A stretch of DNA of 64,000 nucleotides from Alkaliphilus serpentinus (GTDB lineage: Bacteria; Bacillota; Clostridia; Peptostreptococcales; Natronincolaceae): the NCBI RefSeq assembly GCF_009017255.1, contig NZ_WBZB01000025.1:1-64000 (forward strand). Reading direction: 5' to 3'. Numbering within the stretch: position 1 is the first letter of the stretch; the number at the start of each line of letters is the position of its first letter. Position numbers and translations under genes: made by a program. Below, in pieces: positions 1,233-38,886 of the stretch. The notes under the pieces were generated by a model that saw only the letters and a program-made list of their open reading frames with translations, had not been told where the DNA came from and searched no databases.

Positions 1233-2231
1233 TTACATTTTCTCCCTTAAATCAAAAGGTCTAAATTCTACATCCTCTAGGATAAATTTAATCAGTTTGT
1301 AGCAGTCCAGTTTTATAGCTGTTTTATAGCTGGTTTTACGCTTAAGCCTGGTATGAAAGAATACACTTTCAAGTCTCTCCTCAAAAGCTGAGATAAAAAG
1401 TTTTCTTCCCTCTTCATTTAATAAACAATAGTTCAGTTTTTTATCAAAGTGCTTACTTACTTGTATTTTTCTATTATTAACTAACTCGAAAATTGTTTTA
1501 AAAACTAGTATTGGTTTGAAAACTTCACAAAGATCTAAACTTAGCGAAAATCTACCTTCTGAGGGGGCATGTAAAAAACTGATTCTTTGATCTAAATGAG
1601 TATTAAATATAGCGGTTATTGTTTTTGCATATAGCAATGTGTTGCCAAAAGACACTAAAGCATTGATAGGATTATCAGGTGGTCTTTTCACCCTTTTGTT
1701 CATCACAAAATCCTCTAATAAAATATGTTTAAATTCACCATAAAACCTTTGCCATAGTTCCCCTTCAACCTGCATTGTCTGAGGAATATTTTCTGCATTT
1801 TCTATGAGCCCCTGTATATCTTTATTAATCCAGTCAATTGTACCTTTAACCTCTTTTTTATTATGCTTGTAGTAGTGATATAAAACTTCATACATATTGT
1901 TTGCAATACCTTGTACAATCGCTTTAGCCACTATAAGACGTTTAGTATTATAGGCTTCTACTTGCTTTATAAGTATTTTGCCGCTATTATATTTCTGTTT
2001 AGGATAAAATGTACCACTATATCCCTCATAATAATTGAAAAAGTGAATAATTATATTGTTTTGAGAAATAAAATCTAAAAGTTTGCTATTAATGCTTACC
2101 TCAGACATACAGTAGATTTCTCTTGTATTTTCTACTGGTATGTAGACATTTTTATTGTTCTTTCTAAAACATAAAGAATTGTCTTTCCTGGTTAATTCTC
2201 CCATTGACGTTATATATCTCGTACTCCCCAT
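1233..2231 (-). CDS. cas1: CRISPR-associated integrase Cas1 (type I-B)
   Basis: A 332-residue protein with an N-terminal beta domain (NVYIPVENTREIYCM) and an alpha-helical integrase domain. The latter shows the family landmarks VSFGNTLLY, the His in FLHAPSEGRFSL and the Asp in LDLCEVFKP, which help form the metal site. It catalyses spacer integration with Cas2 and, in systems like this, works with Cas4. Its stop abuts the cas2 start and it lies 9 bp downstream of cas4, so it is one transcription unit. Confidence 0.97.
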   Translation of the reverse strand: MGSTRYITSMGELTRKDNSLCFRKNNKNVYIPVENTREIYCMSEVSINSKLLDFISQNNIIIHFFNYYEGYSGTFYPKQKYNSGKILIKQVEAYNTKRLIVAKAIVQGIANNMYEVLYHYYKHNKKEVKGTIDWINKDIQGLIENAENIPQTMQVEGELWQRFYGEFKHILLEDFVMNKRVKRPPDNPINALVSFGNTLLYAKTITAIFNTHLDQRISFLHAPSEGRFSLSLDLCEVFKPILVFKTIFELVNNRKIQVSKHFDKKLNYCLLNEEGRKLFISAFEERLESVFFHTRLKRKTSYKTAIKLDCYKLIKFILEDVEFRPFDLREKM

Positions 2232-2240
2232 GTCACCCTC

Positions 2241-2732
2241 CTATATGTAGCAATATTCAAAGTATGCACATTTCTTGCATTTTGGTTTATTAATTACCTT
2301 TGGTGCTTCTTCTTCTAGTAATAACGCTTCAATCTCTTTTATTACTCCTTGAAGTTCTGTTAATCTTTTATCATCTAATTCAACAATAATTGTACTTGTA
2401 CTCTTATTCTTTTCTACAAATTCTAGCTTCCCCTTTCTCTCAATTCCTTTGTCTCTTAGAACTTTCAAATATAATAACGTCTGCCACTTTGCAGCATCTA
2501 TGTCAGCGTCGGACTTTTTGACCTCTGTCAAGTATTCTTCGGTCAGTTTGTCTATTTTCACATTATCAATACTAATCTCGGTGGTTTTGTTACTTTGCTT
2601 TTTTACTTCATGAATTGCTTTCCCAATCTTTACGTCTTCGCTATTATCTTCTAAATTAATTCGATTCCCATGCAACCAGCACTGTCTTTTACAGTGATAA
2701 AAATAATTTATCAACGTTCCATTAACTTTCAT
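2241..2732 (-). CDS. cas4: Cas4 iron-sulfur exonuclease
   Basis: A 163-residue RecB-like nuclease. Cysteines near residue 14 (YHCKRQC) and a C-terminal cluster near 152, 155 and 161 (CKKCAYFEYC) form the [4Fe-4S] site typical of Cas4. A TEVKKSDAD stretch followed by KWQTLLYL matches the E-x-K plus QxxxY layout of the RecB nuclease core. Cas4 trims prespacers and helps choose PAM-bearing DNA for Cas1-Cas2. It is shorter than many Cas4s but both cluster halves are present, so it looks functional. Confidence 0.93.
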   Translation of the reverse strand: MKVNGTLINYFYHCKRQCWLHGNRINLEDNSEDVKIGKAIHEVKKQSNKTTEISIDNVKIDKLTEEYLTEVKKSDADIDAAKWQTLLYLKVLRDKGIERKGKLEFVEKNKSTSTIIVELDDKRLTELQGVIKEIEALLLEEEAPKVINKPKCKKCAYFEYCYI

Positions 2733-2740
2733 AACCCCTC

Positions 2741-5320
2741 CTATATAAAGTCCCCAATTCCCCTATTAAAATTATCTCTATCAAATTTTCCATCTGTAAA
2801 ATATTTTTCTCCATCAGCAATGTAAAAGATATCACCCACCCTTTCTTCGTAGGTAAAATCATCACTTTTTACTTGATAGATAAAATAATTGAGATTCGAA
2901 GTTATTCTAGATAGTTTTACCTTTTTTTCAGCAAAACTTAAGTAGTTGTTTTTAAGCAAGGAAACGTACTCTTTCCATACCTCTTCTCCATCTAGAACTT
3001 TGTTATATTCTAATTGAATAATTCTACTCAGAAATACTTTATATTTGTAATGTTCATCTATAAGCTGCATTTTTTCTTCAACTTTTTGGAAATTTAATCC
3101 TCTGACATTTACATTGATAAAATTCTGAAAGTTATTTTGATTTAATTTACTTGATTGTATTTTTAATCTTTTTAACACATCATCATAAAATAATTCAAAG
3201 TTCTTATTGATAAGAATATCTCTTATATGTTGGTTGGTTAAGCTAATAGTTTTATCTTTCCTAATATCATTCTTATAAACATTCGAAGCAGAGTCAATAT
3301 TGAAGAAGTATACCTTACACTTTTTCTTTTTACAGGATCGGTTAATTCTACCTAGGAATTGTTCTTCAGCATCTAGCATTGATATATCTTTATAACCCAT
3401 ATCCATATCAATATCTACGCCTGCTTCAATCACCTGGGTGGCTACGAGGATAATGTTTTTACTTGTTTTAACCTTTGCTATGATTGCGTTCCTATCAATG
3501 CTATTATCATCTCCTGTAATAAGCACTATTTCTTTTTTAATGCAACCCTCTAATAGTTCATTTTCTTCCTTTAGTCTCTTGAAAAATGTCATAGCACTCT
3601 TCTTGGTTATAAATTCAACTAAAATATTACCTTTGGTTTTTTTAGACCTGTCCAGTAAATGACTTAGTATTTCTTCCTGTGAATTCTTTTCAGAGTCTAG
3701 TAAGGAAAAATCTAATTGCACTCTATCTTTAAATATTGGATTACTAAAATATTTATCCCTATTTTCAATTAATTTTATGGTATCTGTTTCTTTATCTATT
3801 AGTCTGTTAAGATTAGGCAATGTGGCTGACATAATAATAAGTTTGATGTTTAGCGCTTCTGAATAGTAATTTAGAAAAGTGATAATTTCTTTCCATATAC
3901 TATTTTTATAGCTTTGTATTTCATCTAAAATGATTATACTATTTGCCATCTGATAGAGAGGAAATAAGTTCTCCTTTGAAGTTCCAAATAAATAATTGAA
4001 TATACTCACATGAGTAGTTAACACCATTGGATAGTGTAGGAATTGTCTATCTAAAAGAGATAATTCATAATCATCTTTTATTACATCGCTATCTTCTCCA
4101 TCCACTTTTCTCTTTGTTTTTATTGGGACTACAGAATTAATAACAGCAATATCCTCTAGCACAGAATGTTCTCCGAAGATATTATTAAGGGTATTCAAAT
4201 TCTGCTCAATGAGTGTGTTAAAAGGATATACATAAAATATTTTATTTAAAGATGGATGTAACTCTGCAAGTTTAAAACTTAGGTTCATGCTAACATTACT
4301 TTTTCCGCTACCAGTAGGAGCTTCTAAATAAAAGATGTTATTATCATAATTTTTACGTAAATTTTCTTCAGTCTCTAGAAATAATTCGTTTCTTAATATA
4401 TTGATATCTGTAACACCAAAAAATTCTTTTGATTTATGATAATGCTCCATCTCATACATACGTATACTCTTATACAATTCAGTGTTTTTATAAACCCGAT
4501 AGAAAAAGTCTATATCTCGAATTCCGTTAAAATTACTTATTTCTTTTTGGTTTTTGAAATGTGATGTTGCGTAATAATCACAGGATATTAATAAAGAAGC
4601 CAGAAACCTATTATATATGTAAAAATGCATAGAGTCTTCTTGTGCTACTTTATCATTCAAACTCTTGTTAACATTTACAAAAATATGCTTTAGAAAATTA
4701 TTTTCTACATTAAATAGTATTGGCTGCTTATAAATCTCATCATATATTCTGTTTTCCTCTGTATATAGCCTATACCCTTCTCCGTCCTCCTCTAAGAGTT
4801 TGCTTTTAAATTCAGCAAAACTATCAAGTTTACCATGATGCTTCGAAATCACATAGGCGTTTAATAGCATAAATATAACAAGTATTGCTTGATCCTCTTT
4901 TATCGTATGTTGCTGTATCTTACTAAAATAATGATTAATATAAATAAGAGACGAAAGCATAGAATGATTTGAGTTGTTAAAGTTTATACCATAGAATTCC
5001 TTAAAAGCTATGTTTTTCATCTTAATAAATTGAAAATTACAATTTATTTTTCCAACATCATGCATATAGATTGTGTTCAATAACATTTCTCTGTATACAT
5101 CTATCCCCCTATTGCTCAAATCTTTACATAATTGGTTTTCAAGGTTCAGAAAAACATTATCCAAGCGTTTTTCTTTAATAATTCTTTGTAAATACATAGT
5201 CGTTAATTCAACATGTTCTTTCAAGGTTTCCTTTCTGTCATCAATTACATGGGCATAAATTTGTTCATTATTTACAATAAATTGATCTAAATCAAATTTT
5301 TCAACACCATCAAAATACAT
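2741..5320 (-). CDS. cas3: Cas3 helicase-nuclease
   Basis: An 859-residue fusion of an HD nuclease and a superfamily 2 helicase. The HD domain has H36 and the H86-D87 pair (YMHDVGK). The helicase has Walker A APTGSGKS near 334-341, a DEIQ box near 466-469, MSATLP near 497-502 and motif VI QFLGRINR near 654-661. Cas3 is recruited to Cascade-bound R-loops and degrades the non-target strand. All expected motifs are intact, implying an active interference module. Confidence 0.97.
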   Translation of the reverse strand: MYFDGVEKFDLDQFIVNNEQIYAHVIDDRKETLKEHVELTTMYLQRIIKEKRLDNVFLNLENQLCKDLSNRGIDVYREMLLNTIYMHDVGKINCNFQFIKMKNIAFKEFYGINFNNSNHSMLSSLIYINHYFSKIQQHTIKEDQAILVIFMLLNAYVISKHHGKLDSFAEFKSKLLEEDGEGYRLYTEENRIYDEIYKQPILFNVENNFLKHIFVNVNKSLNDKVAQEDSMHFYIYNRFLASLLISCDYYATSHFKNQKEISNFNGIRDIDFFYRVYKNTELYKSIRMYEMEHYHKSKEFFGVTDINILRNELFLETEENLRKNYDNNIFYLEAPTGSGKSNVSMNLSFKLAELHPSLNKIFYVYPFNTLIEQNLNTLNNIFGEHSVLEDIAVINSVVPIKTKRKVDGEDSDVIKDDYELSLLDRQFLHYPMVLTTHVSIFNYLFGTSKENLFPLYQMANSIIILDEIQSYKNSIWKEIITFLNYYSEALNIKLIIMSATLPNLNRLIDKETDTIKLIENRDKYFSNPIFKDRVQLDFSLLDSEKNSQEEILSHLLDRSKKTKGNILVEFITKKSAMTFFKRLKEENELLEGCIKKEIVLITGDDNSIDRNAIIAKVKTSKNIILVATQVIEAGVDIDMDMGYKDISMLDAEEQFLGRINRSCKKKKCKVYFFNIDSASNVYKNDIRKDKTISLTNQHIRDILINKNFELFYDDVLKRLKIQSSKLNQNNFQNFINVNVRGLNFQKVEEKMQLIDEHYKYKVFLSRIIQLEYNKVLDGEEVWKEYVSLLKNNYLSFAEKKVKLSRITSNLNYFIYQVKSDDFTYEERVGDIFYIADGEKYFTDGKFDRDNFNRGIGDFI

Positions 5321-5367: not shown

Positions 5368-6120
5368 TTAAAAAAAGTATAATGTATTTTCCTCACATTG
5401 ATATACCAGTAGATTCCCCTTGGGTATTAATGAAGCATTCGTATACAAAAATGTTTCGAGTTCATATTTATTAGTTGTTTTTTCTAAAGCAATCGGCAAC
5501 ATTTCTTGATATTTAAAAATCGGTGCACAATCAAAATCTATGTTAAAGATATCCGCTTCAATGGTTTGCATTTCAAATTTATCCTTTATAAACAGGCTGT
5601 CCACCTTATTCACATTAGCCATTTTTTGAATATTTTCTATCACTTTAATATTGGTAATATTAGCCATATGATCATTTTTTCCTAAGTAGGGTATGTATTG
5701 AAACCTCCTCTCTATTACCCTTTTTGCCAATTCTTCCGTAACTTCTCCTTCAATCAGAACGTATATATCCCATTTAGGTTCTTCTAACCATTGTTCTTTC
5801 ACAATTAGATTCCCCCCTTGTTCCTTCGAAGCATATCCTACAGAATTATTATAAATCTGCATTTTTTTGGGTATATATCCCTTTTCGTTTTTAGGTGCTA
5901 TGCTGAGCTTGATATCGTTAAGTTTTTCATAAAACTCAGGGTAGACTGCCTTATTCTCCTCTACTTGTTGATTGTATCCTTTGTAGCCAAGGATAGCACC
6001 TAAAATACCCAATAAAGCTATTTTGTGAATATTACCATAAGTGAAATAATAATAGGTATTTACATCTGGTTTTTTAAAAAAAGCTGTTTTTCCACTTAGA
6101 GTAAATTTTAAAGCCTTCAT
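5368..6120 (-). CDS. cas5: Cas5 (type I-B, Cas5h family)
   Basis: A 250-residue RAMP-fold protein beginning MKALKFTLSGKTAFFKKPDV followed by YFTYGNIHKIALLGILGAILG, the N-terminal signature of the Cas5h branch. In Cascade it binds the 5' handle of the crRNA and contacts Cas8. It starts just after the cas7 stop at 6123, so translational coupling is likely. The 47-bp gap to cas3 holds the cas3 ribosome-binding site. Confidence 0.93.
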   Translation of the reverse strand: MKALKFTLSGKTAFFKKPDVNTYYYFTYGNIHKIALLGILGAILGYKGYNQQVEENKAVYPEFYEKLNDIKLSIAPKNEKGYIPKKMQIYNNSVGYASKEQGGNLIVKEQWLEEPKWDIYVLIEGEVTEELAKRVIERRFQYIPYLGKNDHMANITNIKVIENIQKMANVNKVDSLFIKDKFEMQTIEADIFNIDFDCAPIFKYQEMLPIALEKTTNKYELETFLYTNASLIPKGNLLVYQCEENTLYFF

Positions 6121-6122
6121 TC

Positions 6123-7079
6123 TTACACCTCTTTTTTAGTAAAAATGTTCATTTTCTTAGCCCCTTTAATTTTTCCTTCAAGGACTGTAGTATAAGGATT
6201 GTAGTATATTTCAATATTGTGAATTTTATCTTGTAGATCATTGAGTAGTTCATCACATTTTAGTAATATAGTATTCTTCCCTTCTTCCTTTTGAAATTCT
6301 ATATATTGAGATAAGTCAGGAAGATATATATCTCTATCTGTTTCAACGAACAATGCAAATTCATTTTCACAACCTATTTTAGCATTGGTACTAAAAGAAG
6401 TAGCTGCCACAAGTGAAGCATCTTTAAACGTTTCGTAGTCTTCTTCTGTATATCCACCAGTTACTCCTAGGCTTTTAAACTCATCATAAGTGGCTGGATT
6501 AATTGCAAAGGGATAAAAATAGTGGGCTTCATTACTAACAATCTTAGTTCCAATTGTAGATGCTTTAGCATCTTCTTTTTCTTCATTGTCCTTCCCTTCT
6601 TTTTTAGACGCATCTCTAAAGGGCGAAAGGATTTGTTGTTCTTCTGCATTGGTTTCACAATGCTTGTTGAATCCTTGTCCAATTTGTACCGCTCCTGTTA
6701 TAGAAATGTTGTTTCCTTCCTCCGCGAAGGTAGCTCCAAAGTTTTTAACGTCTATCGCCATAAATAGATTTTTCAAGACTGCCTTACTATCCTTTTCTTT
6801 CTTTAAGTCCTCTACATCAAAAATATGTTCATACCTTTCCTTTAAAGATCTTGGAATCAGTTCTGTTTCTCCTTTTTTACTCTCATTTAATTTTAGAGAC
6901 TTTAAATATAAAACCTTTCTGCCCTGCTGCTCCCACATTTTTTTAATTGGATACTTAAATGCTTTATCGCTACCAAATACTTCACCACTGGAGGTTGTCT
7001 TTGGATAGCCTGTAAAGTCTGCATTCCAGTTGCTCATTCTAGAAACAATGCCTAGGATACCATATACCCTTTTATTCAT
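6123..7079 (-). CDS. cas7: Cas7 backbone subunit (Csh2 family)
   Basis: About 318 residues, starting MNKRVYGILGIVSRMSNWNADFTGYP, typical of the Csh2/Cas7 family of type I-B. Multiple copies form the crRNA-binding backbone of Cascade. I chose the ATG at 7079, which has a purine-rich ribosome-binding site (AAGGGGGAAGGGG) and overlaps the cas8b stop; a longer frame opens at 7109 without a better site. A Lys/Glu-rich insert (about residues 165-180) probably forms a surface loop. Confidence 0.95.
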   Translation of the reverse strand: MNKRVYGILGIVSRMSNWNADFTGYPKTTSSGEVFGSDKAFKYPIKKMWEQQGRKVLYLKSLKLNESKKGETELIPRSLKERYEHIFDVEDLKKEKDSKAVLKNLFMAIDVKNFGATFAEEGNNISITGAVQIGQGFNKHCETNAEEQQILSPFRDASKKEGKDNEEKEDAKASTIGTKIVSNEAHYFYPFAINPATYDEFKSLGVTGGYTEEDYETFKDASLVAATSFSTNAKIGCENEFALFVETDRDIYLPDLSQYIEFQKEEGKNTILLKCDELLNDLQDKIHNIEIYYNPYTTVLEGKIKGAKKMNIFTKKEV

Positions 7080-7470
7080 TTTCCCCTTCCCCCTTGTCAG
7101 ATTTTTCATAAATTAAGTTACTATGCAAATAACCTGCTATGATTAAATCCTCATTATTTTTATCCTCTGGTTCATAAGATGAAACCATCGCAAACAAATT
7201 TTTAAAACGAGTAGAACTTGTATTGATTGAGTAATTGTATTTTTTATAAAGTTTTTTTAGCTCTTCTTTTATTCTTTCATCCGACTTTGCATTGATAATT
7301 GGGTTAGCTAAAGAATGTACCTTGTTTTTTGACCTACTTAATGAGATAAAATAACTGGTAAGTTGTCCAACAGCAAAATTATATTCATTGTCATTTTCTA
7401 TCGTTGCAGTGCTATTTTGATTAATCTTTCTCCTTAATTTATTTTTCACATCTATTAAAATATCACCCAT
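7072..7470 (-). CDS. cas11b: Cas11b small subunit from an internal start within cas8b
   Basis: Inside cas8b, ATG at 7470 (codon 444) is preceded by AAGGGGG with 7 nt spacing, a far better ribosome-binding site than expected inside a gene. Translation from here gives a 132-residue, Lys-rich, mostly helical protein (MGDILIDVKNKLRRKINQN...). Type I-B, I-C and I-D systems are known to make their small subunit this way from the 3' end of the large-subunit gene. Size, position and signal all fit; expression is inferred. Confidence 0.75.
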   Translation of the reverse strand: MGDILIDVKNKLRRKINQNSTATIENDNEYNFAVGQLTSYFISLSRSKNKVHSLANPIINAKSDERIKEELKKLYKKYNYSINTSSTRFKNLFAMVSSYEPEDKNNEDLIIAGYLHSNLIYEKSDKGEGENE

Positions 7471-8799
7471 ATTATCGCCCCCTTCAAAATATTTTTTTAA
7501 AGCACATCTTAGGTTAAATTGATCACTGGCTTTTAACAAATATCCATTCTTGATAGAGCCTTTTATCAATTCTAAGCTACTATTATTAAGGATTTTCCAA
7601 GCATTTTGATTACTCCCCTTATAAAACCAAGTAAATAAAGCGGTTCTAGAAAGTAATAAGTTCCTTTTTAGAATATTATCATTTATTCTTATATCCTTAG
7701 CATCTGTAAAATAGTTTGTTGTTAAAAACTTACTGAAGAATATTTCATTGATTATGTTTTTAAGTGTTGATAGCTTATGAATCCGATTATATTGTAGGTT
7801 TGATTTTTCTAGACATAGTACATTTTCTAAATCTAATGGCTTAATTATTGCTTTATAAAGCCCAATGGTATCAAAATCATGTATTTCTATTTCTTTTCCT
7901 TTTTTTACTCTTAAATAGTAGCCACAGAAATCCTCTATAGGGATTTCATCGTTTGTATAGGCTTTGATTCCCTTTTCATCCACATAAATATTGGTTTTAC
8001 TAACCGCTACAAGATTGGCTAGAAAGTCAAAAAATTTCTTTTGCATCAAAACTTCCTCAACAGAAAGTAAGTAAGGTACTGTAATTTTTCTAGTTTTATT
8101 CTCCAAATAAGGCTTTTTAGCATTCAATCCCATATTGTCGTTTGGTAAACCATATGTTCTCTCGCCAATGACTTCGTTATAATCGGTACTGTTATAAATG
8201 TTAGCCAATATGTACCTTTCACTTTCTCTTTGATAGGTTAATAAATCATACTTGAAAAAGATCTTTAAATATGTTTTATCCTTAGTATCTTTATCTGTTA
8301 GATTAAAAATATTATTTTTGATCCAAGCTTCTATTTTTTCGATTTGTTCAATATCAGGTTGTCCGATTTTTTCTTGAATGGACAAATACAGTTTCTTCGA
8401 TTTTGGTTTTGAATATTTGATAAAAGGATTTTTTAATGTAGCATAGTATTTTTCGATAATCTCATTAGTCATTTTGCCATTATGTAGGTTTTCTTTTTTT
8501 ACAAAGAAAGTTAAATAGTTATTACTATGAATGTTTTTATCACTCAATGCCTTATTAGAATCTAAATATCGACTTAAATAATCTGCCTTTTGTATAAACT
8601 CAATATCATCAATAGTAAAGTCTATTGTCCTTGTCTTTTTGTTTAGCTTAATATGAATACGATTAGTAATTGTGAAATCATCTTGATAGGGATCAACTAT
8701 GATGTACTCTCCATCGGCAGGTATATAAGAATCCGTGATTAAATCGTCCCCATGTTCTTTATATACCTTTTCGAAAATCTTAACTGCATCAAATAACAA
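7072..8799 (-). CDS. cas8b: Cas8b large subunit of type I-B Cascade
   Basis: A 575-residue protein in the large-subunit position between cas6 and cas7. It starts with TTG at 8799 behind a G-rich ribosome-binding site. Cas8b recognises the PAM and opens the DNA. The sequence is divergent, as usual for Cas8, so the assignment rests on gene order, length, the Csh1-like look of the N-terminus and the neighbouring Csh2/Cas5h types. The last 132 codons are probably also translated separately as Cas11b. The stop overlaps the cas7 start. Confidence 0.88.
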   Translation of the reverse strand: MLFDAVKIFEKVYKEHGDDLITDSYIPADGEYIIVDPYQDDFTITNRIHIKLNKKTRTIDFTIDDIEFIQKADYLSRYLDSNKALSDKNIHSNNYLTFFVKKENLHNGKMTNEIIEKYYATLKNPFIKYSKPKSKKLYLSIQEKIGQPDIEQIEKIEAWIKNNIFNLTDKDTKDKTYLKIFFKYDLLTYQRESERYILANIYNSTDYNEVIGERTYGLPNDNMGLNAKKPYLENKTRKITVPYLLSVEEVLMQKKFFDFLANLVAVSKTNIYVDEKGIKAYTNDEIPIEDFCGYYLRVKKGKEIEIHDFDTIGLYKAIIKPLDLENVLCLEKSNLQYNRIHKLSTLKNIINEIFFSKFLTTNYFTDAKDIRINDNILKRNLLLSRTALFTWFYKGSNQNAWKILNNSSLELIKGSIKNGYLLKASDQFNLRCALKKYFEGGDNMGDILIDVKNKLRRKINQNSTATIENDNEYNFAVGQLTSYFISLSRSKNKVHSLANPIINAKSDERIKEELKKLYKKYNYSINTSSTRFKNLFAMVSSYEPEDKNNEDLIIAGYLHSNLIYEKSDKGEGENE

Positions 8800-8814: not shown

Positions 8815-9507
8815 CTAAAGAAATTTATAATTAATAAAACCATACCCTCGAGAATTCATCTCCCCTACTCCACTTGCTAATGAAAAATATGCAATTTTTT
8901 GAGCAATTTTATTTTCTGCAACATATAATGTAAGCTTGTCTCCCAAAAGCTTAACGTTTTTATAGGATGAACCTATGGGCTTATGGTTATTAAGCTCTAT
9001 TCTGTAAAATAACTCGAAATCTTCGTCAAGCTTGGTATTGAAATAATGGTTATATTTTTTGATTAAATTCTCTCGTAGGCGCCGATCATAATCCTCAATT
9101 GATAAGTGACCCTTCCAATAGCCCTGATCTGTTTTAATAATAGATGGGGTTATGCTATATAGCTTTTCAATATGTTTTTTTACCAGAATCCTACAATCTA
9201 GTGTCAGCCCTTTAATGTATTCTGTGTATGCATTAGCAAGATTCTTTTTAAAATGCTCAACCAACATTTCGTCTACAGTCCTAATCTTAACTGAATAGAT
9301 TTTTCCTGCCTTATAGACCTGGTCTTCTTCCAGCCTATAGAATGAGTTGAAGGTATAATGTTTAAAAGATTTACTATTGTGAAAATTTCGAAAATTCTCT
9401 GTAGAAATTAGAGAACTATCAATTATTTCTGTAATTCTCTCTAGAGTTTGTCCCTGATATATGTCCTTAAGTAAATATACTTTCAGTGTAAGCTCATATA
9501 CTTTCAA
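8815..9507 (-). CDS. cas6: Cas6 crRNA-processing endoribonuclease
   Basis: A 230-residue RAMP protein, first gene of the cas operon. It cuts the repeat 8 nt before its 3' end to leave the ATTTAAAT handle. I place the start at TTG 9507 (product (M)KVYELTLKVYLLKD...) because AGGTGG sits 7 nt upstream; the longer frame opening at 9576 runs through the promoter. The glycine-rich C-terminal loop (GVGEMNSRGYGFINYKFL) is the family hallmark. Confidence 0.95.
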   Translation of the reverse strand: MKVYELTLKVYLLKDIYQGQTLERITEIIDSSLISTENFRNFHNSKSFKHYTFNSFYRLEEDQVYKAGKIYSVKIRTVDEMLVEHFKKNLANAYTEYIKGLTLDCRILVKKHIEKLYSITPSIIKTDQGYWKGHLSIEDYDRRLRENLIKKYNHYFNTKLDEDFELFYRIELNNHKPIGSSYKNVKLLGDKLTLYVAENKIAQKIAYFSLASGVGEMNSRGYGFINYKFL

Positions 9508-9547
9508 TTTCCCACCACCTCTTTGTAAAATATCCCATCTATTTAAA

Positions 9548-9576
9548 ATTATAGTATTAAAATTAGTATATGTCAA
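9548..9576 (-). promoter_or_regulatory. Promoter of the cas operon
   Basis: A perfect housekeeping promoter on the minus strand: TTGACA (9576-9571), 17-bp spacer, TATAAT (9553-9548). Transcription should start near 9541, giving a leader of about 35 nt before the cas6 TTG. A consensus promoter would be strong if unregulated, which makes the crRNA-like target site 11 bp upstream of the -35 box more meaningful. Confidence 0.9.
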
Positions 9577-9587
9577 TATTATTTAAT

Positions 9588-9612
9588 TAATAATTTTAAT
9601 ATTAATTAATGA
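9588..9612 (-). promoter_or_regulatory. Putative Cascade target site (PAM plus protospacer) at the cas promoter
   Basis: Positions 9588-9609 match 9707-9728, the spacer of the nearby degenerate mini-CRISPR, in 21 of 22 bases. On the strand equivalent to the crRNA, the protospacer is preceded by TCA (9612-9610), a PAM known for clostridial type I-B systems. The single mismatch is spacer position 12, one of the every-sixth positions flipped out in type I Cascade. The last four spacer bases do not match. The region is nearly pure A/T, so chance similarity is the main caveat. Confidence 0.72.
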
Positions 9613-9650
9613 TAATAATAATTATTAATGAGTATTATGGTGATTAATTT

Positions 9651-9675
9651 GAAGAGACTAATTTCTAGTCTCTTC
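9651..9675 (-). terminator. Strong hairpin at the 3' end of the mini-CRISPR transcript
   Basis: A perfect 10-bp inverted repeat (GAAGAGACTA and TAGTCTCTTC) with a 5-nt loop. It overlaps the end of the second degenerate repeat by 3 bp and lies between that repeat and the cas promoter. There is no good U-tract on either strand, so it is either a weak terminator, a stabilising 3' structure for the small RNA, or an operator. Confidence 0.5.
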
Positions 9676-9764
9676 CTGTTACATCTTATGTTGAGGTTAA
9701 AGATCATAATAATTTTCATATTAATTAAATTTAAATACATCATAAGTTATGGTTAAAATAGATT
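9673..9764 (-). ncRNA. CreR-like RNA: degenerate mini-CRISPR (two pseudo-repeats, one spacer)
   Basis: On the minus strand the first pseudo-repeat (9758-9729) keeps the last 12 bases of the array repeat, GATGTATTTAAAT being preserved through the handle, while its 5' part has diverged. The second (9702-9673) keeps the central AACCTCAACAT and GATGTA but has lost the handle. Between them is a 26-nt spacer (9728-9703). This is the anatomy of CreA/CreR RNAs, which Cas6 processes and Cascade uses for repression rather than cleavage. A promoter ends just upstream. Function is inferred. Confidence 0.75.
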
Positions 9765-9770
9765 AATTTC

Positions 9771-9799
9771 ATTATAATATAAATTTCAATATACAACAA
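9771..9799 (-). promoter_or_regulatory. Candidate promoter of the CreR-like RNA
   Basis: TATAAT at 9776-9771 with TTGTTG at 9799-9794 and a 17-bp spacer. The -10 is perfect and the -35 matches three of six positions. Transcription would start near 9764, only about 6 nt before the first pseudo-repeat, as expected for a dedicated crRNA-like transcript. The flanking DNA is very A/T rich, so a chance -10 is possible. Confidence 0.6.
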
Positions 9800-11313: not shown

Positions 11314-12615
11314 CTACTTAATTAAGTGTACCATTATATCCCTCTTCAACTTATGGATCAATAGCTCCTGATATCCAGCCCTTCTTATTTTCTGGATCTT
11401 ATGGGCGATGTTCTGTAATTGATTATCCTTTAATTTTTTCATCTTATTTAAACGATTTTGGTTAATTTCATGATTCGATAACGAGCCTATATAATCTTCT
11501 TGTGAATAATTCCATAGGTGTAAATTGTTGGTGAATCTATTTTTTAGCTTATCTGCAATTAATAGACCTTCTGGATCAAAGTCTCCTGAGTAGTAGATTT
11601 CTGTATTTGATTCTACGAGAATGTCTAGAAGCATCAGTGATGCAAGCTTTATTTGCCCATAGGTACATATTATTGGTGGCCTGCAGTCCTTTAATTCGTC
11701 AAGAATTCCACTGAAAACTGTTGGATTTTCCACAACAAATACCTTGCCGGAGGGACTGATTATTTTTTGAACCTCTGATAAGTTCCAGAGATTGATTTGC
11801 ATTGGTTCTCCCCTTTGATAGAAGGCTTCCCATCCCTTATGAATATTGCTATCGGTAAAGGCAATGAGTCCGTTCAAAGTGGTGAAATTAGATATGTCGT
11901 CCTTTATAATTCCAGCTTCATAAAAAAGCTCAGCCTTTTCCTCAGCATTATTGGGTAGCTTTGATTTTAATATATCTGCTAATGTGTAGGTTAACAGCTT
12001 GTTGCAGTCGGTTCCGTCATCAAAGGTATGGGGATTCTTGCTTATGCTTGATGAAAAAAAGGCCAAGCGTTGTTTATTATTTGTAAAAACAGGTAAAGCC
12101 CTTATTGCCTCAGCTAATATCAACAAATCCTTCTTTAGCTTGCTTTTGTCTGAGTCGTATCTTGAAATGAGAATTCTATATCCATTTTTCTTTTCTGCAA
12201 GCTGTTTATTCAACCATTTTGCAAAGTCTGAATATTGGACGTTGTCAATTAGATCAGCAAAAAATTTTTCTCTTTCTTGTTTATAGCTATTAAATTGATC
12301 TTTTTTGTATATTAATTCTTCATTAAAATAAGCTTCTATTATATCTTGCAGCTTAAGCTCTTCAAATTTTGTTCCTGACAATGCTTTCTGAATGGATTCC
12401 ACTTTAATGGATGCTGATTTTTGCTTTCTAAAGTCTTTCCTTAAGAGGCTAGACAGAGCTTCCTTTTCTTCATTGGCTAAATTGGTTAGTACCACCGTTC
12501 CCCCCATGGATCCTAAGGAATAGTATTTGTCTCGTATTTTATAAAACAATCTTCTATACCCTATATTGCTCTTAAAATAATCTACACACTGATTAAGCAA
12601 TATTTTCATCTCCAT
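11314..12615 (-). CDS. jetD: Wadjet JetD, topoisomerase VI-like nuclease (type II, TIGR02679-like)
   Basis: About 433 residues. The C-terminal half has a Toprim layout: VFVVENPTVFSGIL supplies the conserved Glu and YSGDFDPEGLLIADKL the acidic pair. JetD is the nuclease subunit that cuts circular DNA after JetABC has extruded it. I chose ATG 12615, which has GAGGAG 7 nt upstream and overlaps the jetC stop; a TTG-type extension to 12633 is less likely. The N-terminal half is helical and probably contacts JetC. Confidence 0.88.
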   Translation of the reverse strand: MEMKILLNQCVDYFKSNIGYRRLFYKIRDKYYSLGSMGGTVVLTNLANEEKEALSSLLRKDFRKQKSASIKVESIQKALSGTKFEELKLQDIIEAYFNEELIYKKDQFNSYKQEREKFFADLIDNVQYSDFAKWLNKQLAEKKNGYRILISRYDSDKSKLKKDLLILAEAIRALPVFTNNKQRLAFFSSSISKNPHTFDDGTDCNKLLTYTLADILKSKLPNNAEEKAELFYEAGIIKDDISNFTTLNGLIAFTDSNIHKGWEAFYQRGEPMQINLWNLSEVQKIISPSGKVFVVENPTVFSGILDELKDCRPPIICTYGQIKLASLMLLDILVESNTEIYYSGDFDPEGLLIADKLKNRFTNNLHLWNYSQEDYIGSLSNHEINQNRLNKMKKLKDNQLQNIAHKIQKIRRAGYQELLIHKLKRDIMVHLIK

Positions 12616-15600
12616 CCTCAAGCTCCTCTTCAAATAAATCCTCTTCTACTATTAACTCTCGAACCTTTCCGTTCCAGTGATAACGTATTACAGTTACATA
12701 GTCGGCATTATTAGGCCTTATTAGCTCACAGATTGCAAGGGACGATATTGTGTCATAGTCTCCCCATAGTATCTGAGAATTGATGATAAAGTTAAGCTTT
12801 AGTTCTTCCAACAACCTGAACATATCCCTAATATTGTTTTCATCGACACCTGCAAAGGCCTCATCTAAGGAAATGATCCTTGGGGATTCTTTTCTTGCTC
12901 CTTCATAGCGAGCATATACCGAAGAAAATAACGGTACATACATTGCCATTGCTTTTTCACCACCACTGAATCTATCAAAGGCGTTGTTGGTAAGCTCCTT
13001 TTTATTTTCTCCAGTTTTTTTGTAGAGGAGCTGAAATTCAAACCATTTTCTATAATCAAGTATATCCTTCATTATGCTGTGGAAGGTTTGAAGGCTTCCT
13101 GAATCTTCGGTACGTTTTCTTGCTTCTGTGATTTTTGATCGGAAGTGAATAGAAATTTTATTTAAATCTTCATAACGTAGCATATTAGCATCCATTTTCA
13201 AGAGCTCTACAAGCTCCCTCGTATCCAGTTGATCTTCTGTTTCTCGAACTTTCTGCTTCCAGCTTAGATTAAAGGCTAAGCCACTGGAGGTATTCATAGA
13301 TTCCATGAGTTGATTCATCTTGTTAACCCATTCTCTACTGTTATAAATCTTAGCCCTAATCTTTTTACCTATGGTATTTACTAAAATGTCTTCAAAAATG
13401 TTTCTATCGCTTTCCTTCAGTAGTTTTTCATTTTCTTCTATAGATTCTTCAATAAAGCTCATAAGGGAATAAAAGCTAACTTCCTTCCCCTGAATTCTGC
13501 CCTTTATTTCTAATCTCCTTTGCTTTCCAGTTACCTGCCATAATAGCTCATCCTCTAGCTCTCTATTGATAGAGGTGCTAGTGTAATCCATCATCATGTT
13601 ATACTCTACCAAATACTGTCGATTTATATGAAGCTTTTCCTGCAAATCAGATGAAAAACCTTCCTTATCTTTACCTACTTTATCTATAGACTTTAGCTCT
13701 TCATAAACTTTTTCTGCTAGTCTGTTTAAATCCTTCTCTTCCCTTGACTCATAAACGTATCCCAACTCCAGTTCCTTCTTAAAGCCTATATAATTGATGT
13801 TATAGAGCCTTTCCTGTGTCTCTATTTTTTCTTCTATGTCCTTCAGCTCATTTTCCTTTTGCTTATAATTAGCCTTTCCTTCTTCTCTTAAAGTGATCTG
13901 ATCTTCTATTTCAACAGGCAGATTCTTTAATTTTTCGATGCATACTTCTATTTCCTTCTTTATTTCCTCATAATCGGTAAGGTTAAGCTGTTTATTGTAA
14001 TTTTCCAATCTTTCTTTATTGATTTTAATGCTTCTATCGATATTATTAAAATCATATAGTAAATTTTCTATGTCTTGTAAAATCTCCTCATATTGTTGAT
14101 TTATAAGATTATTTTGGGATACCAACTCCACCAGCCTTATATGCTGATTTATTAACTCATTTAATTCCTCTTTATAGGCTTCTGAGTCCTCCCTTGCAGC
14201 CTCATAATCTTCTAGCCTCAAGGGAATACTCAGCCCTTTAGTAGCCTCTCGTACTGCAGCTCTACTGCTTTGCCAATTTTTATACTTATTCTCTACATCC
14301 TTTTCCTTCCTTACAATCTGTTCATCCTTTTGTTCAAATAGAAGACGGGTCTTCTTTACCTCATTTAAGGCTGTTTCAATATCCTCCTTAGATGGATAAT
14401 TGTTGTATTCCTCTGTAAGAAGCTTCAAACATTCTTCAATGTTTTCTATAGATCTATTTACTACTTGAATTTTTTCATTTATTTCATTAATTTCCAATGT
14501 AACTTCTTCTATTTTCTGAAACTGATGCTGTCTTCTTGCATGAGCACCTATATATTTGGGAATGTACTGGGTAGTGACCTTACCTCTTAATAGTCCAATG
14601 CCATACTGTCCCTCTTCGTTTATAAAGCATCCCTCTTCTTCTGAATCTAGTAATATGGTTTTTAAAGCTCCTTCAATTTCCGCCTCTGTTATTCCATTGG
14701 TATTATTTTTTTCTGCCTTTAATAATTGTGAAAGTTCATGTTTTAGATATTGGGGATTGGCAAAAATATATTTATCTGCCATGTCTTTATTAATACTTAA
14801 GGCTTCTTTTTTGAATCTTTGAGGTATTATTAACGCATCTAATATCCCCATATCCATTAGAGCCTCTTCAAGTATTCCCCTTATTTCATCAGGGACTTGG
14901 TTTTTGAAATCAATAGCCATGTAAAAGGGAATATGGGGTATAGCCATTTCTGCAAGCCTTTCTCTGTTCCTTACTACCTTAATTTCTCTGGGGGGCTCTG
15001 GGTCCTTCTTGTTTTTCCATTCTTCAAGCTCTAATTTTTTCTCCTTCAAATTCTCATTAAGCTGATTTTTCTCTGTTATGTAGCAGGATTTTTCTACATT
15101 CAGCTTTCCTTCATATTCATTAAAGGGCTTTCTTACTATACTTATAATGTCATCATAGCTGACATTTTCTCCATATAAATGTATTTTGTTGGTTAACTCC
15201 ACCAGAATATCCCTTGGCATTTTCAATATTTTGTTTTCTTTATCCCATTGATACATTTTTTCAACAAATTCATCTCTTGTTTCTGTTAAAAGACCTTCTG
15301 CCTTATATAATTGATTGACTATAGTTTCCCTTTCTTTCTTTAGGCCTTCCAGCTGTCCATAGGCCTCATCATAAAACTGCATGTTATTTTTTTCATCCTG
15401 TAGGAGCTTGCAGCCATTAATCACTTTATTGCTGTAGTTTTTTATCTGATTTTTTACATAAGTAAAGCTAAAGGGATCCTTTAAACTCTTTGTAAACTCC
15501 TCATTGAAGAAGACCTGTTCGTCAAAGTAAAATTCCTTGGCAAGACTATCCATTAGGCTTAAAATATTGATAATGGAGTCTTCCTGTTGTTGTATTTTCC

Positions 15601-16738
15601 CTTGGGTATCCTTTAGAGTTCTATTAAGGCTTCTTTCACTGCTGTTTTTTGTATCCAGCATTTTACCTTTTTTTTCTTTTTCATCCTTCTGTTCTATTAA
15701 AAGATTGTCAATAGCAGTAATCTGTTCCTTTAATTTAAAGCTGTCATGGTTTTTTAACTCATTTTCCTTTTCTTCTGTTAGCTCTAACTCATCTTTAAGT
15801 CTGTTGATTTTCTTATCTGCTTCAATAAACTGATTATAAAATTTATTGCGATCTTCTATTATCCTTTTATTCTGGGTATTAAGGGTATCCATAAGGGTCT
15901 TTGATTTAACCAATTCCTTTGATTTATCCATCAGCATATAACGATTATACTTGTCGTAGGAATCCTTTATTTTAGCTGCAGCCTTATAGCTGGCCTGTAG
16001 GGTTTCAAGCTGGCTTTTAACCTGATCCATGTTTTCTATTGCCTCTGAGATTGGTCTTAAATCATCATCAGATAGAGGTTGCAGAGAATTATTCATTATT
16101 TCATATATTACTGTTGGTTTAAAATCCTTTGATAGCTTGGGGGTTCTTAGTTGAATTAGTAGCTTTATTAGCTCATCATATTCCTCCACCTGATCAAAAC
16201 CAAAAAGGAGTCTATTCACCATCTTCATATAATCCTGTTGTCCTTCCTTTACTTCCCCTCCATCGCCTATTTTATTTTTTAGCTCTGTTTTGCTTAAAGG
16301 TATATCCTCTCCCATTTCTTTATAGAGAGCTATATCTTTACCGATCCTTCTACCATCTGTTACTGAAAAACCCCACGAATCCATGGGCTTTCCCCTTCTT
16401 GCCCTTAGCCCTAAGCCTATTGTAAGATAGTTGTCCGACTCTTCCTTTTTAAACTCAAGATATAAATAGCCTGTTCTCTCTTCTCTATTGTCCTCTTCAC
16501 CCAAAAGATAGTTTTCAATTTTTCTAGCCCTAGAGCCGAAGGGATCAAGCCTTTCTGGACTTTTGTTGCCATCCAACAATAAAGGGATAAAGCTCTGCAT
16601 GGTTACAGATTTTCCCGAACCGTTGGCACCCCTAAGAAGGAGCTTTCCATCGGAAAACTGGAATTCTTCTTTATCATAGTACCAGAAATTTATTAATCCC
16701 ATTCGGTTCATTATCCATCTGTTCATTATCAGTTTCAT
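12593..16738 (-). CDS. jetC: Wadjet JetC, SMC-like ATPase (type II, TIGR02680-like)
   Basis: About 1381 residues. Walker A RGANGSGKS lies near 36-44, then a very long coiled coil interrupted by a hinge-like region (about 590-780), then the signature FSGGEKAMAMY and Walker B IISLDEAFAGVD near the C-terminus. This is the loop-extruding motor of the condensin-like Wadjet complex, which recognises plasmids by size and topology. The N-terminus RWIMNRMGLINFWYYDKEEF resembles TIGR02680 proteins. ATG 16738 or 16726 could be the start; both overlap the jetB end. Confidence 0.93.
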   Translation of the reverse strand: MKLIMNRWIMNRMGLINFWYYDKEEFQFSDGKLLLRGANGSGKSVTMQSFIPLLLDGNKSPERLDPFGSRARKIENYLLGEEDNREERTGYLYLEFKKEESDNYLTIGLGLRARRGKPMDSWGFSVTDGRRIGKDIALYKEMGEDIPLSKTELKNKIGDGGEVKEGQQDYMKMVNRLLFGFDQVEEYDELIKLLIQLRTPKLSKDFKPTVIYEIMNNSLQPLSDDDLRPISEAIENMDQVKSQLETLQASYKAAAKIKDSYDKYNRYMLMDKSKELVKSKTLMDTLNTQNKRIIEDRNKFYNQFIEADKKINRLKDELELTEEKENELKNHDSFKLKEQITAIDNLLIEQKDEKEKKGKMLDTKNSSERSLNRTLKDTQGKIQQQEDSIINILSLMDSLAKEFYFDEQVFFNEEFTKSLKDPFSFTYVKNQIKNYSNKVINGCKLLQDEKNNMQFYDEAYGQLEGLKKERETIVNQLYKAEGLLTETRDEFVEKMYQWDKENKILKMPRDILVELTNKIHLYGENVSYDDIISIVRKPFNEYEGKLNVEKSCYITEKNQLNENLKEKKLELEEWKNKKDPEPPREIKVVRNRERLAEMAIPHIPFYMAIDFKNQVPDEIRGILEEALMDMGILDALIIPQRFKKEALSINKDMADKYIFANPQYLKHELSQLLKAEKNNTNGITEAEIEGALKTILLDSEEEGCFINEEGQYGIGLLRGKVTTQYIPKYIGAHARRQHQFQKIEEVTLEINEINEKIQVVNRSIENIEECLKLLTEEYNNYPSKEDIETALNEVKKTRLLFEQKDEQIVRKEKDVENKYKNWQSSRAAVREATKGLSIPLRLEDYEAAREDSEAYKEELNELINQHIRLVELVSQNNLINQQYEEILQDIENLLYDFNNIDRSIKINKERLENYNKQLNLTDYEEIKKEIEVCIEKLKNLPVEIEDQITLREEGKANYKQKENELKDIEEKIETQERLYNINYIGFKKELELGYVYESREEKDLNRLAEKVYEELKSIDKVGKDKEGFSSDLQEKLHINRQYLVEYNMMMDYTSTSINRELEDELLWQVTGKQRRLEIKGRIQGKEVSFYSLMSFIEESIEENEKLLKESDRNIFEDILVNTIGKKIRAKIYNSREWVNKMNQLMESMNTSSGLAFNLSWKQKVRETEDQLDTRELVELLKMDANMLRYEDLNKISIHFRSKITEARKRTEDSGSLQTFHSIMKDILDYRKWFEFQLLYKKTGENKKELTNNAFDRFSGGEKAMAMYVPLFSSVYARYEGARKESPRIISLDEAFAGVDENNIRDMFRLLEELKLNFIINSQILWGDYDTISSLAICELIRPNNADYVTVIRYHWNGKVRELIVEEDLFEEELEDGDENIA

Positions 16739-17885
16739 CCTCTCTAATTTCAAGCCCTTTAAGAAAATCGTCAGGATACTTTCCGATCATTTTTCCTACT
16801 ATCGGCATAATAATAACCTCTTTTGTTTCCTTTTCTAGTTTTATCATTTGAAAGCCTTCCATATAGCTGGTTACTTCATCATATAGCTTTGATGGAGACA
16901 TTTCTCGATATATTTTGCTCCAGCCCTCTTTGTATTTTCTTCTGACCCTATCCACCAGACCTTCAAAGGCTGAAGCAGAAGTAAGTATTCTGTCATCTTC
17001 TTTTATGGTAAGCTCTCCACCCTTTATGTTCTCTACAATTTCAAAGTTAACCAACAGAACAATATCGGAAATGGTTTTTGTGTTGGGAAAGGTGTCTTTG
17101 AAGTGCTGGTTTTGTCTAAGAATAAGTAGGGCACCATTTTTATGAAGATGAAAATCAGCGTCTAAGTATTTTTCTATATCCTGCTGCAGCATATTTCGGT
17201 AATTTTTAATGTATAAGTAATCAGAATCCTCTTGCCCTTCATTATATACAACAGGAGACATTATCAACCTTCTGTAAACACGATTTCTTCTGACTCTTCC
17301 CCTTTCTTTATCTAAATCCAACCATTCCTTTTCATCAATATCCTGCCATGAATTGTAATTTAGAATGTTGCCAGAAAAGTGCCTCATAAAATATCTAGAA
17401 ATCCCTGTGCTTTCATATAGCACCTCTACATCCTGCTGGTTAATGAACTGCTGTTGATCTCCATCATTTTTCCTAATTAACCCCATCTCTTCTATAAAGG
17501 ATATTACCTTTATAAGGGCCTTTCTGTGATGAAATAGTGTCCAATCAAGTTTTTCTTCCCCTGGATAAGTACCCTGTAAGAATTCAGTTATCTCCGATAA
17601 TACAAATTGCTCCTCTGCCCCCTTATCCTCTAGAAAAACCAGCATTAGACATAACAACCCATACTCAACCTTACTGTCAAAGGCATCTATCCCCATCCAT
17701 GGCTCTGGTTTCCCCGGTAGCTTTTCTAGCTTTATCAAGTAGGGATTAACTATTAACTGGTAACCAAGCTTTTCTTCAATAAGGGGCTTTATGGCCGTCA
17801 ATGAATCCTTCAGCTGATAGTAGAGCTCCTTATTGCCTTCCTTAATTATCCAATAGTTTTCCAATAGGGTTTCTAATTCTTTCAC
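16674..17885 (-). CDS. jetB: Wadjet JetB, kite-like subunit (type II, TIGR02678-like)
   Basis: About 403 residues. The start is GTG 17885, with AAAGGAA 9 nt upstream, rather than TTG 17894. The protein resembles TIGR02678 family members, with a central RRNRVYRRLIMSPVVY stretch and predicted winged-helix segments. In Wadjet, JetB dimers sit on the JetC heads like KITE proteins in bacterial condensins. Its 3' end overlaps jetC, indicating tight co-translation. Acidic C-terminus (EDETDNEQ). Confidence 0.85.
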   Translation of the reverse strand: MKELETLLENYWIIKEGNKELYYQLKDSLTAIKPLIEEKLGYQLIVNPYLIKLEKLPGKPEPWMGIDAFDSKVEYGLLCLMLVFLEDKGAEEQFVLSEITEFLQGTYPGEEKLDWTLFHHRKALIKVISFIEEMGLIRKNDGDQQQFINQQDVEVLYESTGISRYFMRHFSGNILNYNSWQDIDEKEWLDLDKERGRVRRNRVYRRLIMSPVVYNEGQEDSDYLYIKNYRNMLQQDIEKYLDADFHLHKNGALLILRQNQHFKDTFPNTKTISDIVLLVNFEIVENIKGGELTIKEDDRILTSASAFEGLVDRVRRKYKEGWSKIYREMSPSKLYDEVTSYMEGFQMIKLEKETKEVIIMPIVGKMIGKYPDDFLKGLEIREDETDNEQMDNEPNGINKFLVL

Positions 17886-17936
17886 TTTTATCAATTCCTT
17901 TCGCTGTTCAGAAACAAAGCAAAAAAGATCCTTAAT

Positions 17937-19421
17937 CTATTTCTCATCATAAAACTTAATGGTGTAGGCAGGCATTTCCAGCTGACCATCATCACAATTT
18001 AATATACATCTCTTATCATCCTTCGGCTTAATTACTTGATAGGATGTTCCTACTTCTGTTTTACCTCTTAAGGATTTATTTGAAATTCCCTTACTTAGCC
18101 AAGCTAGAAGGGTATTTCTTACATAGGCAGGAATCACTGGTAGGTTTTCAAAGCATATTTCATTATTTTTTATGTAAAGCTTTATTATTCCCTCTTCCCG
18201 CTGTCTCAGCTGTATCATCCTCTGCAGCATTTGATTTTTCCTCTGTCTGTTGTCAGGAATACTATTTCTTAAATTCTTTTCTTTATAATGTCTTATCCTT
18301 GGCTTAATGGTTAAAATCATTGGATCTTCATCGAAAACCCCGCTGTTTATGCTTTCTGTTTTTCTTTCAATATCCCCCTTGAAATGTCTGCTCTGGAATA
18401 TGCCAAAGGCAAGGGATGATAGATTATGGGCCTCTTCTATAGCTTTTGTGTTTAAAAACATCTGACAAAGTTTTTTATATTCTTCCTTTCTGTTAGCTGC
18501 GCTGTTTCTGCTTTCAACAATCTGAGCGGCATAGCGGGTTATTTTTCTTATTATTTCATTGGTCATATCGAATAGCTTTGAGGCCTCACTTACATCATTT
18601 ACAGTTCCCAAAAACCAATTCTTAAGGTTGGTCCATCTTCCTAGAATACTTTCCCACTGGAGCTCTAAAGGAGCTTCATTATCTATTCTTGGTATTGTCA
18701 GTCGATACTGGAAAACCTTTTTAAGAAGCTTTGTTACCATGTCTTCATCTAGCTTCATCAATATTTCCTCAATACCATAGGTGTTTTGCTGCAGACCCTT
18801 AACGAAATCTCTTAAATATGCAATGAACTTATCCTTAAACACCATAAAATCCCTAGTTTTCATCATTTCTTCTGCCTTAATGCTGTAAAGATCCCTTATA
18901 TAATCCTGATAGTTTTGGTTTAGCCTAATAAAATCACTATTTAAATCTCTCCACCATAAATCAACTGCTGAATCATCAGCCTCCAGTAGGGTAGTTATCC
19001 TCATAAGATGCTCTTTTATTCGTTCTAGCAAGGAGGGCTCTAGAGAGGCTCCCTCAACAAAGAGGTTTTCTAGCTTTACTGTCATGCGCTCTATCTCTAC
19101 CGAGTACTCTGATAATTTATATCGGAACTGTTTATTTTTAAATTCTTCAACAGTCTTAGCCTTTTTAGTATCCTGCATTGGCATCAGGTTTCCCCACTCC
19201 ACCAGTGCATCTAGGTCATTCTTCAGTTGATCCATAGAATACTCTTTAAAATAAGGGTATAGTTTCAGCTCTTCCATTACCTCTTCTTTATACATCCAAT
19301 ATTTGATTTTTTGGTATTGCATGTAAAAGGTGCGTATGATGCTCCTATATCGCCAAGAGTTCTCAGTAGTGAGATATTTGGTTTCAATTATTGGTTTTAA
19401 AACCTTTTCATTTATTGACAT
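17937..19421 (-). CDS. jetA: Wadjet JetA, kleisin-like subunit (type II, TIGR02677-like)
   Basis: About 494 residues, first gene of the operon. The start is ATG 19421 because AAGGAG lies 7 nt upstream; the frame is open to 19472 but lacks a site there. The N-terminal YLTTENSWRYRSIIRTFYMQYQ is characteristic of TIGR02677. JetA is the kleisin that closes the JetC ring and links to JetB and JetD. The four-gene order jetA-jetB-jetC-jetD with the TIGR02677-2680-like set identifies Wadjet type II. Confidence 0.88.
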   Translation of the reverse strand: MSINEKVLKPIIETKYLTTENSWRYRSIIRTFYMQYQKIKYWMYKEEVMEELKLYPYFKEYSMDQLKNDLDALVEWGNLMPMQDTKKAKTVEEFKNKQFRYKLSEYSVEIERMTVKLENLFVEGASLEPSLLERIKEHLMRITTLLEADDSAVDLWWRDLNSDFIRLNQNYQDYIRDLYSIKAEEMMKTRDFMVFKDKFIAYLRDFVKGLQQNTYGIEEILMKLDEDMVTKLLKKVFQYRLTIPRIDNEAPLELQWESILGRWTNLKNWFLGTVNDVSEASKLFDMTNEIIRKITRYAAQIVESRNSAANRKEEYKKLCQMFLNTKAIEEAHNLSSLAFGIFQSRHFKGDIERKTESINSGVFDEDPMILTIKPRIRHYKEKNLRNSIPDNRQRKNQMLQRMIQLRQREEGIIKLYIKNNEICFENLPVIPAYVRNTLLAWLSKGISNKSLRGKTEVGTSYQVIKPKDDKRCILNCDDGQLEMPAYTIKFYDEK

Positions 19422-26730: not shown

Positions 26731-26767
26731 AAATAAGTATATGAATATGTTCATCAACACAAAATAA

Positions 26768-38805: not shown

Positions 38806-38886
38806 CATTTTTCATTTAATTTAGAATATTATAAAACTTTAATCTTCTTTTGTCAAGGTACTCTAATAGTGATTATTATTTAGAAT

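Follow-up and report, generated by a model that had tools for sequence, protein, structure and literature searches.

Why does a clostridial type I-B CRISPR-Cas system carry, directly upstream of cas6, two decayed copies of its repeat around a short spacer that matches the promoter of its own cas operon? The question is raised by Alkaliphilus serpentinus contig NZ_WBZB01000025.1, of which positions 1 to 64,000 were analysed; this whole stretch of 64,000 nucleotides is referred to here as the window. RNAs that regulate cas genes, termed CreRs, were reportedly described by Liu et al. in 2023, and a preliminary description of the window had proposed a CreR-like circuit at this place, a reading that is supported by the shuffled controls and by the arrangement in relatives reported below. 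The cas operon and the array that it accompanies comprise the following features (profile matches in brackets):

1-739, minus strand: canonical CRISPR array with 30-nt repeats, running off the contig start
942-1232, minus strand: cas2 (TIGR01573)
1233-2231, minus strand: cas1b (TIGR03641)
2241-2732, minus strand: cas4 (TIGR00372)
2741-5320, minus strand: cas3, HD and helicase (TIGR01587, TIGR01596)
5368-6120, minus strand: cas5b (TIGR02592)
6123-7109, minus strand: cas7 (TIGR01595, E 6e-9; matches below curated cut-offs)
7072-8799, minus strand: cas8b/csh1 (TIGR02591)
8815-9507, minus strand: cas6 (TIGR01877; call given as 8815-9510, start placed by eye at the TTG behind AGAGGTGG)
9548-9576, minus strand: cas operon promoter TTGACA-N17-TATAAT (promoter scan, 12/12 for sigma-70)

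The presence of cas8b/csh1 together with cas5b, cas7, cas6, cas3, cas4, cas1 and cas2 identifies the system as type I-B, with cas7 recognized by sub-cut-off matches only, and the spacers in the two array pieces of the genome are 34-37 nt long. The promoter, which serves cas6, is one of eight sites returned by the promoter scan (shuffled mean 5.9), the seven others scoring 9/12 and not exceeding what shuffles yield. Close upstream of the cas operon lies a Wadjet type II set (JetD2, JetC2, JetB2 and JetA2 by PADLOC models; 11314-19472, minus strand), which together with the operon makes up a small defence island. The window also contains two T-box leaders (26516-26736 and 38595-38812, minus strand).

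Within 300 bp upstream of cas6, two decayed repeats on the minus strand enclose a 26-nt spacer, referred to below as the guide. The parts of this mini-array, and the site that its guide matches, are as follows:

9588-9609, minus strand: target, identical to the guide in 21/22 nt, the single mismatch being position 12
9610-9612, minus strand: PAM TCA, adjoining the target
9651-9675, minus strand: stem-loop of 10 bp (-14.1 kcal/mol, z -4.8) just behind pseudo-repeat 2, where the RNA may end
9673-9702, minus strand: pseudo-repeat 2 (psiR2), 19/30 to the array repeat; 17/22 in the would-be 3' handle part, 2/8 in its own decayed handle
9703-9728, minus strand: guide (spacer), 26 nt, against 34-37 nt for the array spacers
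9729-9758, minus strand: pseudo-repeat 1 (psiR1), matching the array repeat at 22/30, with 8/8 in the 8-nt 5' handle ATTTAAAT and 14/22 in the part before it
9771-9776, minus strand: -10 hexamer TATAAT of the mini-array promoter, perfect (by eye)
9794-9799, minus strand: weak -35-like hexamer TTGTTG of the mini-array promoter, 3/6 to consensus, 17 bp from the -10 (by eye)

The complementary decay of the two pseudo-repeats noticed earlier thus holds at these coordinates, psiR1 keeping the handle and psiR2 the part that precedes it. This division of the kept parts is the one described for CreA RNAs, whose 5' and 3' handles measure 8 and 22 nt (PMC8501985; papers cited by PMC number were available as excerpts, to which statements about them refer). 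A -10 of the mini-array's own had also been noticed and is perfect, whereas the -35 departs from consensus at half of its positions and the promoter is absent from the output of the promoter scan. No U-run or terminator tail was seen at the stem-loop when a terminator was sought behind psiR2, and a search of Rfam at the gathering threshold gave no match at the mini-array. Outside the arrays, the exact 13-mer GATGTATTTAAAT occurs in this genome only in the mini-array and at one place on contig C56; the latter was considered as a second mini-array and rejected, no second pseudo-repeat being seen there by eye. As in CreRs, what stands here is a mini-CRISPR with degenerate repeats, outside the array and beside the cas genes.

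The match between guide and target, its mismatch at position 12 and the adjoining TCA were reproduced at the coordinates first reported for them, as was the perfect cas6 promoter, whose -35 begins 11 bp beyond the target. Past the paired stretch the guide mismatches at positions 23 and 24, and pairing involves 21/22 nt of the 26-nt guide. Like a CreR, the guide therefore shows partial complementarity, next to a PAM, to the promoter that drives its own cas operon, and this complementarity is shorter than the full spacer. In very A+T-rich DNA, a match of this kind might in principle arise by chance or through local duplication. The intergenic region has an A+T content of 84%, and taken by itself psiR2 does not reach significance, since in 5,000 dinucleotide shuffles of this 344-bp region the best repeat match was at least 18/30 in 937, at least 20/30 in 32 and 23 at the maximum; the case hence rests on the combination of features. 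In the same shuffles, the best 22-nt match with any PAM had at most one mismatch in 0/5,000 and two mismatches in four, while the best TCA-flanked match had at least four mismatches in every one, and the shuffled A+T-matched control proposed beforehand thus never reached the match seen in the window. The match is also unique, for in the genome (3.29 Mb, 83 contigs) TCA followed by the guide, with any base allowed at position 12, fits perfectly only at 9588-9612, and the sole other place within three mismatches is the mini-array itself. Chance or duplication is accordingly scarcely credible as the origin of the pair.

Several PAMs are reported for clostridial I-B systems, TCA among them (PMC4860712). 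A PAM was also sought through the array spacers, by comparing the array piece on contig C46 (1,400 bases; one of two pieces) with phage records; the 10 records found each shared one stretch of 27-29 bases, with E 0.1-0.4, which is chance level, and the PAM of the window's system therefore lacks an independent derivation.

We read the mini-array, with a probability of roughly 0.9, as an autoregulatory guide of the CreR type that belongs to the type I-B system and is predicted from its sequence to repress its own cas operon, and we infer the following course of events. The mini-array would be transcribed on the minus strand, and Cas6, the product that makes the crRNAs and presumably the CreR, would cut both pseudo-repeats, releasing an RNA that consists of the ATTTAAAT 5' handle, a guide of 26 nt and a 3' part of 22 nt. 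Carrying this CreR, Cascade would bind the TCA-flanked site 9609-9588, which lies shortly before the -35 of the cas6-cas2 operon, and would keep RNA polymerase away from the operon. Because pairing extends over at most 22 nt, against 34-37 nt for the array spacers, no full R-loop would form and Cas3 would not be engaged, and the chromosome would be spared. In I-B Cascade every sixth guide base is flipped out, and a full R-loop is needed for Cas3 (PMC11096372). Repression without cleavage by I-B systems has been obtained with guides of up to 26 nt in Parageobacillus (PMC10551041) and up to 24 nt in Haloarcula (PMC10989794); the unpaired tail in the window begins only after 22/26 nt, on the margin of the lengths examined in these two organisms. 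Array crRNAs or an anti-CRISPR would draw Cascade away from the target, and cas transcription would go up. CreRs of other systems do answer to crRNA load and anti-CRISPRs (PMC12737573, PMC13131331), and by analogy the window's system may respond likewise.

The same kind of guide gene, in the same place beside cas genes, is found in CreTA modules, where repression falls on a small toxin gene instead of the cas operon and addicts the cell to Cascade. For the window such a module is improbable: behind the target a single strong promoter is present, and it is followed directly by cas6, which has its own ribosome-binding site, and no separate ORF of at least 20 aa lies on the same strand between the promoter at 9576-9548 and cas6, shorter ones having been sought by eye only. 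Within these limits no toxin RNA or gene was found behind the repressed promoter, and the absence of a linked toxin gene is as in CreRs.

If the mini-array serves as a CreR-type guide, related systems might maintain similar pairs with different letters. Cas6 searches yielded 75 clostridial cas6 loci (L numbers below) including the window's, 14 further Cas6 matches being left out; in nine of the 75 the sequence upstream of cas6 is shorter than 900 bp, down to 80 bp. Every repeat-like stretch with the handle, array repeats included, was taken to yield a guide, giving 232 guides in 55/75 loci, and targets were sought in the 900 bp upstream of the guide's own cas6 with positions 6, 12 and 18 free, no PAM required and an extent of at least 13. 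Repeat-like stretches were masked narrowly in this search, a broader mask hiding the targets of L030 and L047, which are also visible by eye. Twenty-six guides matched their own region at this extent, and TCA adjoins the match in 22 of them, from 22 loci. By comparison, guides swapped between loci reached this extent in 184/17,168 pairs, 0 with TCA, and random 26-mers of the same regions did so in 343/8,968, five with TCA (two at an extent of at least 17, none at 19 or more), although many of these 26-mer matches will sit in array repeats and some may overlap real guides. Own matches that lack TCA were not counted, namely L050, which looks like a local inverted repeat, L060 twice, with one array spacer present twice, and L062. 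The weakest of the 22 pairs is L069, whose guide consists of A and T alone.

Two further selections gave similar sets. Selection by the seed (positions 1-5 and 7-11) plus TCA found 24 own pairs in 23 loci, against 4/17,168 swapped pairs; L058, among these seed-selected pairs, is an out-of-step match and was not counted. A relaxed search with the 8-nt handle alone plus TCA found 25 matches in 24 loci, L075 being listed twice with guide and target swapping roles, and added L037, L042, L061 and L075; it missed L068, whose extent of 13 is below the minimum of 14 set there, and L069, because guides of only two letters were filtered out. As controls for the relaxed search, ten shuffled handles gave 0-12 matches in nine cases and 285 in one, and ten other PAMs gave 0-18 matches, except for CAT (769) and AAT (462), which are taken as array repeats. 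Over both scans, 26/75 loci are positive, and no such element was found with these scans in 49/75. Among the six cas6 loci of the window's family, it is present in L009, L011 and L013, and none was found in L010, L012 or the distant plasmid cas6 L029. The check for the arrangement in relatives suggested at the outset thus came out in its favour, with TCA-flanked pairs in 22 loci and, in the same-family genome G005, a spacer that differs from the window's yet matches its own cas6 promoter. That 21 other loci have a TCA-flanked pair of other letters, when swapped guides gave none, is a further point against a chance match in the window.

The 22 TCA pairs differ at particular positions. Mismatches at positions 6, 12 and 18 number 14, 14 and 12 (40/66, 60.6%; unrelated letters would give 60.9%), against 4/330 at the other positions of 1-17. 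Pairing fades after position 21, with mismatches in 18/66 at 19-21 and 51/66 at 22-24. Since these pairs had been chosen with positions 6, 12 and 18 free, the choice was repeated by plain mismatch count, at most 4 in 20 at TCA sites; this position-blind choice, whose cut passes 12/17,168 swapped pairs, gave 19 pairs, of which 11 differ at position 6, 12 at position 12 and 9 at position 18, against 2/285 mismatches elsewhere in 1-17. Individual pairs show the same regularity: the G005 guide mismatches at 6 and 12, then at 22 and 23, with none other in the first 21 nt, and that of L030, an inverted mini-array in a Syntrophomonadaceae MAG, at 6, 12 and all of 18 to 24. Positions 6, 12 and 18 thus differ as if under no selection, and the mismatch excess at 22-24 (77% against 61% by chance) hints that longer pairing is selected against. 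As far as sequences go, the anatomy, the match, its upkeep across relatives and the kept positions are established, and the pattern is consistent with a guide of type I Cascade in which every sixth base goes unread and pairing ends short of Cas3 recruitment.

This pattern also bears on the origin of the pair. A local duplication would neither stop at 21-22 nor spare all but every sixth base. Alternatively, the mini-array could be a decaying leftover of an old array, with a spacer taken by accident from the cas promoter and no present function, as the degenerate repeats, the loci without an element and the scatter of positive loci over the Cas6 tree might suggest; on this tree the label of the 26 positive loci requires 18 changes (shuffled mean 21.8; 26/500 shuffles as low), and gain, loss and missed cases are therefore not separable by it. 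However, the guides vary between species yet match their own targets, at the read positions only, whereas a dead relic would lose the match evenly, and we regard a relic as very improbable.

The anatomy of the presumed CreR-type guides was also compared across relatives. Over the 22 TCA pairs, psiR1 agrees with the clostridial repeat consensus in 97% of the 8-nt handle and 65% of the rest, and psiR2, found in 19/22, in 78% of the first 22 nt and 41% of the last 8; the values of 97% and 78% are biased upward, psiR1 having been picked partly by the handle and psiR2 by the first 22 nt. The spacer between the pseudo-repeats is 23-30 nt in 15/19 loci with psiR2 and 33, 38, 43 and 45 nt in the other four, in most cases below the length of array spacers in the window's genome, the sole array set measured. 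A hairpin with at least five T in eight follows psiR2 in 6/22 loci.

Guide and cas6 point the same way in 19/22 pairs, and the target lies on the cas6 strand in 20/22. A promoter-like -35 starts 0-11 bp beyond the target in 13/22 (L009, L011, L013, L040, L041, L050, L060, L067, L068, L071, L076, L078 and L082), some of which will be chance in such A+T-rich DNA; in L030 a promoter-like -35 overlaps the target, and in L013 and L082 another ORF lies between the targeted promoter and cas6. In 11/13 loci the target and the -35 are separated by 0-1 or 8-11 bp, two classes about one helical turn apart, which may be chance; the other two loci have 4 and 5 bp. In L013 an IS200-like transposase gene (about -514 to -100 relative to cas6) lies between the targeted promoter and cas6; guide, target and promoter all remain there. 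In L016, L053, L045 and L072 the target appears by eye to lie in the 5' leader. The first gene behind the target, before cas6, encodes an HTH protein of 67-86 aa (HTH_11/Rrf2-like) in L045, L047 and L072, possibly a second layer of cas control.

Some relatives have targets other than the cas6 promoter. In L040 a single guide fits two sites next to TCA: one at the cas6 promoter, the other directly behind the guide's own psiR2 and ahead of a DUF3791-like ORF (Pfam match below cut-off). In L042 (about -300 to -50), L075 (-320 to -60) and L069 (-335 to -75, all relative to cas6), the guide matches an opposite-strand TCA site upstream, with strong ribosome-binding sites and short ORFs nearby, in L042 GGAGGAAG followed by ATG TTA CTA TAG (by eye). 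These three elements could be CreTA-type toxin modules rather than CreRs, and the tiny ORFs near the targets of L042 and L075 are the point among the relatives that lends the toxin reading some weight.

Taken further, these results raise the proposal that CreR self-repression is old and general in clostridial I-B systems whose repeats have the ATTTAAAT handle, with positions 6, 12 and 18 free, 1-21 otherwise fixed and pairing beyond 21-22 counter-selected against Cas3, and with the module redirected in the course of evolution to promoters of cas genes, 5' leaders, genes for small HTH regulators or toxin-like mini-ORFs; to this general proposal we give about even odds. Natural sequences alone indicate which bases I-B Cascade likely reads on a chromosomal target, namely 1-21 minus 6, 12 and 18, and also the natural pairing length when the target must survive. 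The combination of handle, TCA and hexad-blind match also provides a discovery route that needs neither a known guide nor a known target. Where endogenous clostridial I-B systems are used as tools, a built-in throttle on Cas supply is to be expected in some.

Clostridial CreR spread and the hexad signature are undescribed in the excerpts of the related literature found, the original 2023 CreR paper being outside that scope, and the words sixth, mismatch, flipped and Clostridium are absent from the main text of the CreTA paper PMC9458426. The scaRNA of Francisella Cas9 (PMC9458426) resembles the mini-array in being a degenerate-repeat guide that represses host genes, but it belongs to a Cas9 system and has another origin and another target. 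CreTA and its CreA (PMC8501985, PMC9458426, PMC10097628) have in common with it two degenerate repeats, the 8-nt and 22-nt parts, a partial promoter match and Cascade as repressor; the target in the window is the cas operon, with no toxin gene, and whereas CreA of H. hispanica matches an 11-bp seed (PMC10989794), the window's guide matches 21/22 nt. The closest likeness is to CreRs, which have been reported for types I-B, I-E and V-A (PMC13131331) and share the crRNA-like guide, the partial cas-promoter complementarity and the Cascade repressor, I-B included (PMC12737573, PMC13131331); the case here differs in its clostridial host, and its function is predicted from sequence. The CreR kind itself is already known, and what clostridia add is the upkeep of guide and target, an unusually clear evolutionary signature.
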